Part shown: in pieces, positions 3,998-4,902 of the stretch | Position numbering within the stretch: position 1 is the first letter of the stretch | How the letters are laid out: each line of letters opens with the position of its first letter | Assembly (NCBI GenBank): GCA_016882545.1 | Contig: VGPW01000002.1 | Location: 1 to 64,000, forward strand | Length of the DNA stretch: 64,000 bases | From: Cyanobacteria bacterium M_surface_10_m2_179 | Lineage (GTDB): Bacteria > Cyanobacteriota > Cyanobacteriia > PCC-6307 > Cyanobiaceae | Direction of reading: 5' to 3' | Notes under the pieces: generated by a model | What the model was told of the DNA's origin: nothing | The model's input: only the letters and a program-made list of their open reading frames with translations | Database searches by the model: none | Position numbers and translations under genes: made by a program

Positions 3998-4174
3998 TTA
4001 ACGACCCAGCTGGTTGCGGACGGCCTGTTGGGTGCAGGCCTTCTCCAGGAACCAGGCCTTCAGCAGATCCTTGGCGATGGCGCGCAGCTCGGCTGGGTTG
4101 TTGAGAGCATCGAGATCGCGGTTGCAGCGTTCCACTTCGAACGCTTGCACCATGGTGAGTTGGATCGCAGCCAT
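3998..4174 (-). CDS. Small conserved-looking protein (58 aa), paralogue of 4723..4902; possibly NblA-like
   Basis: MAAIQLTMVQAFEVERCNRDLDALNNPAELRAIAKDLLKAWFLEKACTQQAVRNQLGR; paralogy and promoter support a real gene. Confidence 0.75.
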   Translation of the reverse strand: MAAIQLTMVQAFEVERCNRDLDALNNPAELRAIAKDLLKAWFLEKACTQQAVRNQLGR

Positions 4175-4199
4175 CGTGGTTATGCGATGGGACGCGGCC

Positions 4200-4240
4200 A
4201 CCGTATGCAGTTGCAACGTTGCAGCCGTAGCTGTCACTAC
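4200..4240 (-). promoter_or_regulatory. Predicted NtcA-activated promoter of the 3998..4174 gene
   Basis: Reverse strand: GTA-GTGACAGC-TAC (4240..4227), 21-nt spacer, TACGGT (TAN3T, 4205..4200), then start codon at 4174. Confidence 0.6.
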
Positions 4241-4393
4241 GAAGCAGCAGCGTGCGTCAGCAACTGCCGATGGAGCCGTTGCTCGGCTGGCGCCACACCC
4301 ACCTGTAACGACAGGCACAACTTCAGAAAGTCTTCTCCCACAAAGCCCCCGAAGAAGCCTCCCCAGAACGCTTCCGCCGCATAGGTTGCCGCC

Positions 4394-4630
4394 ATGGCTC
4401 GCGCAATCTTTGTGCCGAAGGATCAGCGATCGGTTCAACCCGCCAGCTTGAAGTGGCAGGACGATGGTGAACTCTCAGCCCAGGATGTGTTCAATCTCGT
4501 GTGCCGGCTGCGCGCTGTTGAATCCGGCGCCACGAGCAATGAACTGTGGCGATTGGGGCAGAAGTATCCCCGCCAGAAGCCCCCGCAATCCTCCGCGCCG
4601 CCATCCCCGCCGCCATCCCCGCCGCTGTGA
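4394..4630 (+). CDS. Hypothetical protein with proline-rich C-terminus
   Basis: ORF MARAIFVPKDQRSVQPASLKWQDDGELSAQDVFNLVCRLRAVESGATSNELWRLGQKYPRQ...PPSPPPSPPL. Confidence 0.55.
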   Translation: MARAIFVPKDQRSVQPASLKWQDDGELSAQDVFNLVCRLRAVESGATSNELWRLGQKYPRQKPPQSSAPPSPPPSPPL

Positions 4631-4656
4631 GCGAATCGGGTTGATTGTGGGCATCC

Positions 4657-4697
4657 GTAGCTTCCGCTACGGGACGATTGTTGGCGCTGCATAGCGT
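4657..4697 (+). promoter_or_regulatory. Predicted NtcA-activated promoter of the 4723..4902 gene (and possibly mntCAB)
   Basis: GTA-GCTTCCGC-TAC (4657..4670), 21-nt spacer, TAGCGT (TAN3T, 4692..4697), ATG at 4723. Confidence 0.6.
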
Positions 4698-4722
4698 TCA
4701 GCCACTGTGAATCGGTGGATGA

Positions 4723-4902
4723 ATGGTGATGGCTGCAGACCTTTCGATCGATCAGCGCTTTGAACTCGAACGCTTCAGCCGTGCCATCGATGCCACCGCT
4801 GATCCCGATCAGTTGCGCGCCCTGGCCAAGCAGTTGCTGCAGGCCTGGCACACTCAGAAAGCAGCCACGCAGTGGGTGCTGACGCAGCAGCAGCCTTCCT
4901 AA
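4723..4902 (+). CDS. Small conserved-looking protein (59 aa), paralogue of 3998..4174; possibly NblA-like
   Basis: MVMAADLSIDQRFELERFSRAIDATADPDQLRALAKQLLQAWHTQKAATQWVLTQQQPS*, read directly; absent from the ORF track. Confidence 0.78.
   Translation: MVMAADLSIDQRFELERFSRAIDATADPDQLRALAKQLLQAWHTQKAATQWVLTQQQPS

Follow-up and report, generated by a model that had tools for sequence, protein, structure and literature searches.

The analysed stretch of DNA (the window, 64,000 nt) comes from a freshwater picocyanobacterium, whose nearest named loci belong to Vulcanococcus/Cyanobium. It carries two small genes in back-to-back orientation, designated A and B, with a third small gene between them (Table 1). 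Both reading frames were located exactly where the original prediction had placed them. The claimed paralogy was confirmed, as 24 of 52 aligned residues (46%) were identical between the two proteins, and a GTAN8TAC box followed after 21 nt by a TAN3T element was present in front of each gene at the predicted coordinates. Between positions 6 and 7454, the gene order was psbA, hydrolase, SDR, glycosyltransferase, B, small gene, A, znuA, znuC and znuB, and the same order was found in the loci L034 and L037.

Table 1. Genes and promoter elements of the A/B locus in the window.
Feature	Position	Strand	Remarks
B gene, putative B-type NblA-like small protein, 58 aa	3998..4174	-	ATG at 4174, stop codon 3998-4000
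-10 element TACGGT of B gene	4200..4205	-	box + 21 nt; TAN3T at N21 in 13/13 B loci
NtcA-type box GTAGTGACAGCTAC of B gene	4227..4240	-	13/13 B loci with 0 or 1 mismatch; position -66 in 11
Third small gene, listed length 78 aa	4394..4630	+	between A and B; core about 50 aa, 4427-4576
NtcA-type box GTAGCTTCCGCTAC of A gene	4657..4670	+	box in 38/39 A loci
-10 element TAGCGT of A gene	4692..4697	+	box + 21 nt; among 38 A loci N21 in 35, N22 in 3
A gene, putative A-type NblA-like small protein, 59 aa	4723..4902	+	alternative start possible at ATG 4729

GTAN8TAC occurred exactly twice in the window, both times upstream of A or B, in comparison to 0.29 expected occurrences. The frequency of the motif provides the arguments for chance, or for a motif without function that was neutrally inherited from a common ancestor: two or more boxes per 64 kb were obtained in 6 of 100 shuffles, and the full pattern (GTAN8TAC-N20-24-TAN3T) was not enriched genome-wide, with four matches in the 1.92-Mb assembly against 11 for the reversed control pattern. 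The number of full patterns is thus not significant by itself. Two of the four were the A and B promoters, both with N21; the remaining two could not be assigned to a gene, one lying inside a 543-aa ORF and the other lacking a clear downstream gene. The original prediction had held that two sites with equal spacing before paralogues were hard to ascribe to chance. Frequency alone proves nothing; the promoter argument rests on the position of the sites before the paralogues and on their conservation in relatives.

The search for the motif upstream of orthologues, which had been proposed as a check, was run by counting a locus as positive when at least five of the six box letters matched and TAN3T followed at the proper distance. 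By this measure, 38 of the 39 A-type loci and all 13 B-type loci carried the promoter (51/52 together), the B-type ones being from same-genus genomes and including the window's own B. The initial set of 40 loci contained 39 with the promoter, in comparison to 0.34 per 40 expected from Markov shuffles, and control 150-nt windows of the same loci gave 0 of 802. The distance from the box to the start codon was ~66 nt in most loci, and that from the box to TAN3T was N21 in 48 and N22 in 3 of the 51 loci. Because loci were selected on these letters, their conservation is built in; the weight lies on the locus and control rates and on the placement of mismatches. All 21 single mismatches fell on two permissive positions, the A of GTA or the T of TAC, and none on GT..AC, so that all 51 boxes fitted an invariant GT-N10-AC. 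This pattern played no part in the selection of loci and equals the redefined NtcA consensus, GTN10AC, in which the inner positions are free (PMC6166021). The N8 core and the spacer diverged among relatives, while the box and the -10 element persisted, and the promoter was kept in two paralogue lineages. Chance or neutral ancestry is effectively refuted by the locus and control rates together with the mismatch placement, and we regard its probability as negligible.

In canonical NtcA-activated promoters, the GTAN8TAC box sits at about -41.5, as described in PMC3898017 and PMC6166021. The host assembly encodes NtcA (G000:C15; 374 bits, over the cut-off). It also encodes a second, weaker NtcA-like (CRP-like) protein, which scored 94.7 bits, below the cut-off, and which could in principle point to another CRP-family regulator at the box. 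Such binding is very improbable given the invariant GTN10AC, the prevalence of GTA/TAC ends, a -10 spacing equal to that of NtcA promoters, and the lack of a conserved T directly before the box, a feature linked to a CRP-like regulator (PMC6166021). The claim of an NtcA-activated promoter pair is therefore supported at the sequence level by the conserved box and spacing and the presence of ntcA, and the A and B promoters are very probably NtcA promoters. No description of the conserved A/B promoter and cassette was found in the literature searched.

About 15-40 nt upstream of the box, the sequence CTGAC recurred: 21 of the 39 A loci and 11 of the 13 B loci had it within 40 nt, in comparison to 2.6% of control windows, and it may represent a site for a second regulator. 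The B promoters additionally had ACAAACNGTCACCGTT in common further upstream. The NtcA box was not found upstream of other paralogue groups of the small-protein family. Marine-type paralogues (L115, L129 and L130) carried GTTGNAANNACTAC with N32, not N21, before the -10 element, which places their box 11 nt, or one helical turn, further upstream.

The divergent A/B pair with the third small gene between was common to several same-genus genomes, in some of which the cassette occupied the same psbA-to-znuACB neighbourhood, and the pair was present twice in two genomes (G134 and G281). Orthologues of the third gene, also located between A and B in relatives, were 66-86% identical and shared the core SLKWQxDGELSxQDVFNLVCRLRxVEPGxTSNELWRLGQKYP. 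Homologues occurred in 84 of the 121 genomes searched within the bacterial family, Prochlorococcus-like ones included, and the protein had no Pfam match. Judged by its sequence, the third gene is a separate, unnamed picocyanobacterial family. B-type genes formed one clade separate from the A-type in every one of 200 bootstrap trees, with a support of 86/76 from few columns. The separate clades and the recurring cassette indicate that the A/B duplication predates the genus and that the cassette has been maintained; A and B are accordingly read as two old paralogue lineages separated by an ancient duplication. The original prediction had taken the likeness around the -10 elements as a sign that gene and promoter were duplicated together. 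Joint duplication is plausible, but a recent one was not supported, since the lineages are older than the genus; for the same reason, the local likeness is not a trace of recent duplication.

The A and B proteins resemble NblA (PF04485) in their length of about 60 aa, an LSxxQxFE-type N-terminus, their cyanobacterial origin and a nitrogen-linked promoter. The Pfam model has a curated gathering cut-off of 25 bits, which was not reached by A (14 bits), and B gave no match. A was nevertheless the only PF04485 match in its own genome, and in same-genus genomes the best matches belonged to the A/B family (E 3.9e-4), with 22.7 bits, still under the cut-off, for the genus relative L079. Two unrelated Pfam families scored A/B family members about equally to NblA. 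Matches to Acyl-CoA_dh_C, Imm32 and VirD2 were rejected as chance, being below cut-off, partial and of unrelated biology. The profile-profile comparison of the A/B family with a 50-sequence NblA alignment gave a score of 25.9, while none of 300 column shuffles exceeded 16.3 and the reversed control reached 10.3, although the hhalign probability was only about 70-75%. Wider sets were used here, as hhalign yielded no usable signal with narrow alignments (Neff about 1.9), and cyclic column rotations failed as a control, since whole segments survive them. Searches in both directions exceeded shuffled sequences, and the NblA HMM scored family members at up to 17.4 bits, with 9.0 for their best shuffle. 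The protein QFG06501.1 of cyanophage S-SCSM1, annotated as nblA and lying outside the members of the A/B family HMM, matched this HMM with 34.0 bits (E 1.1e-9). The S-SCSM1 gene is reported to cluster with picocyanobacterial nblA (PMC9602691).

The AlphaFold model of the A protein (pLDDT 82) consists of a short helix (residues 9-24), a loop and a long helix (28-56), the plan described for NblA (PMC7966870). Among the 46 PDB matches of this predicted fold in Foldseek there was no NblA chain, and the helix hairpin is too plain for the search to be informative. In comparison to NblA, the A/B family has one extra loop residue in the global alignment and a conserved LAKQLLQAWHTQKAAT in its second helix. 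L51 and K53 of Anabaena NblA are its C-terminal phycobilisome-binding residues. The Lys position was not conserved in the A/B family alignment, and the Leu position was hydrophobic. The family is also multi-copy, and its uniform NtcA promoter was seen in none of the 30 canonical nblA loci examined; an NtcA box alone is therefore not a hallmark of NblA. Since their scores stay under the Pfam threshold and the C-terminal Lys is absent, the proteins are named NblA-like and not NblA, and the evidence points to a very divergent NblA-like family.

The same shortfall from the Pfam cut-off and the lack of an NblA structure among the Foldseek matches would also suit NtcA-controlled small regulators of another target (an enzyme, PII or PipX), in which the NblA likeness is a convergence of short amphipathic helix hairpins. 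Nitrogen-linked small cyanobacterial proteins of other function do exist, as PMC8092223 and PMC10907346 report for PirA and NirP1. We nonetheless consider this explanation unlikely, because the ordered profile match far exceeds shuffles that keep the composition, the N-terminal LS-x3-[QN]FE-type signature is shared with NblA, an annotated phage NblA matches the family HMM, and the presence of the family tracks phycobilisomes.

The latter association was evaluated across the bacterial family, where the A/B protein family was present in 195 of 300 genomes. With phycobilisome-bearing genomes defined by an apcB-type match at E <= 1e-40, it was found in 182 of 186 phycobilisome-bearing and 13 of 114 phycobilisome-lacking genomes (counts cross-tabulated by hand from two listings), the latter 13 being all weak matches. 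The correlation is largely one evolutionary event, separating Prochlorococcus-like genomes from the rest. Canonical NblA exceeded the cut-off in 141 of the 194 genomes searched at class level, but in 1 of the 121 from the bacterial family. The prophage-type NblA L078 was rejected as a true picocyanobacterial NblA, as it occurred in 1 of 121 genomes only and resembles cyanopodovirus genes. The locus 2983-3210 of L107 corresponds to gp049 of cyanophage PSS2, which is annotated as hypothetical, is noted as similar to WH7803_0965 and is 38.7% identical to an A/B family member.

Up to eight copies per genome were observed, with further paralogue groups (L131, L134, L135, L079-L081, L116, L138 and L139) differing in their upstream regions. 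Distant single-copy relatives (L119-L127; EPIEPSLQ..FEAEKLSR.IQECND) occurred in Prochlorococcus-like genomes without phycobilisomes, and no NtcA box was found in their upstream regions. The many paralogue groups with differing upstream regions, together with the relatives in some phycobilisome-less genomes, would fit general Clp adaptors whose paralogues serve various substrates, with phycobiliproteins as the targets of some. Other substrates are without direct evidence and the presence of the family otherwise follows phycobilisomes closely, so this explanation appears quite improbable.

The reading we favour is that A and B are NtcA-activated NblA-like proteolysis adaptors; for the entire chain, through to the degradation of phycobilisomes, we estimate a probability of roughly 0.6. 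Each gene would have a class II NtcA-activated promoter to itself, with the box centre near -41.5 and TAN3T as the -10 element, and upon nitrogen starvation, NtcA with bound 2-oxoglutarate would bind the boxes and turn on both genes. The proteins may dimerise, possibly A with B, in a manner similar to NblA1 and NblA2 of Synechocystis, which are reported to form an essential heterodimer (Baier et al. 2014, as cited in PMC7966870). NblA itself binds phycobilisome subunits and recruits ClpC (PMC7966870). The A/B dimers would likewise bind phycobilisome subunits and pass them to the ClpC-Clp protease, and the resulting breakdown of phycobiliproteins would recycle amino acids. Both systems consist of two paralogues, with joint action reported in Synechocystis; in contrast to NblA1/NblA2, A and B are transcribed divergently, from one promoter each, with the third gene between them. 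A divergent nblA-like gene has already been published for marine Synechococcus WH8102 (Nadel et al. 2019, as cited in PMC7439483 and PMC9602691). The likeness to marine Synechococcus and cyanophage nblA-like genes is seen in the S-SCSM1 match and in PSS2 gp049 as a homologue; the comparison was made through the citing papers, in whose available text the NtcA promoter, the A/B pair and the cassette are not mentioned.

More tentatively, and with a likelihood that we place well below even, picocyanobacteria may have swapped the single canonical NblA for NblA-like Clp adaptors whose family has expanded. In that case A and B would join, probably together with the product of the gene between them, in a heteromeric antenna-dismantling module switched directly by NtcA, and other paralogues would use other promoters and serve other targets, even in genomes without phycobilisomes. 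Much of the plankton of lakes and oceans is dominated by picocyanobacteria, and the favoured reading of A and B as NtcA-activated NblA-like adaptors bears on how the antenna may be dismantled in those without a recognisable NblA. The analysis yields two named genes, two putatively footprinted promoters with exact bases for mutation and a conserved cassette, and the A/B family gives a clear link to the NblA-like genes carried by cyanophages.
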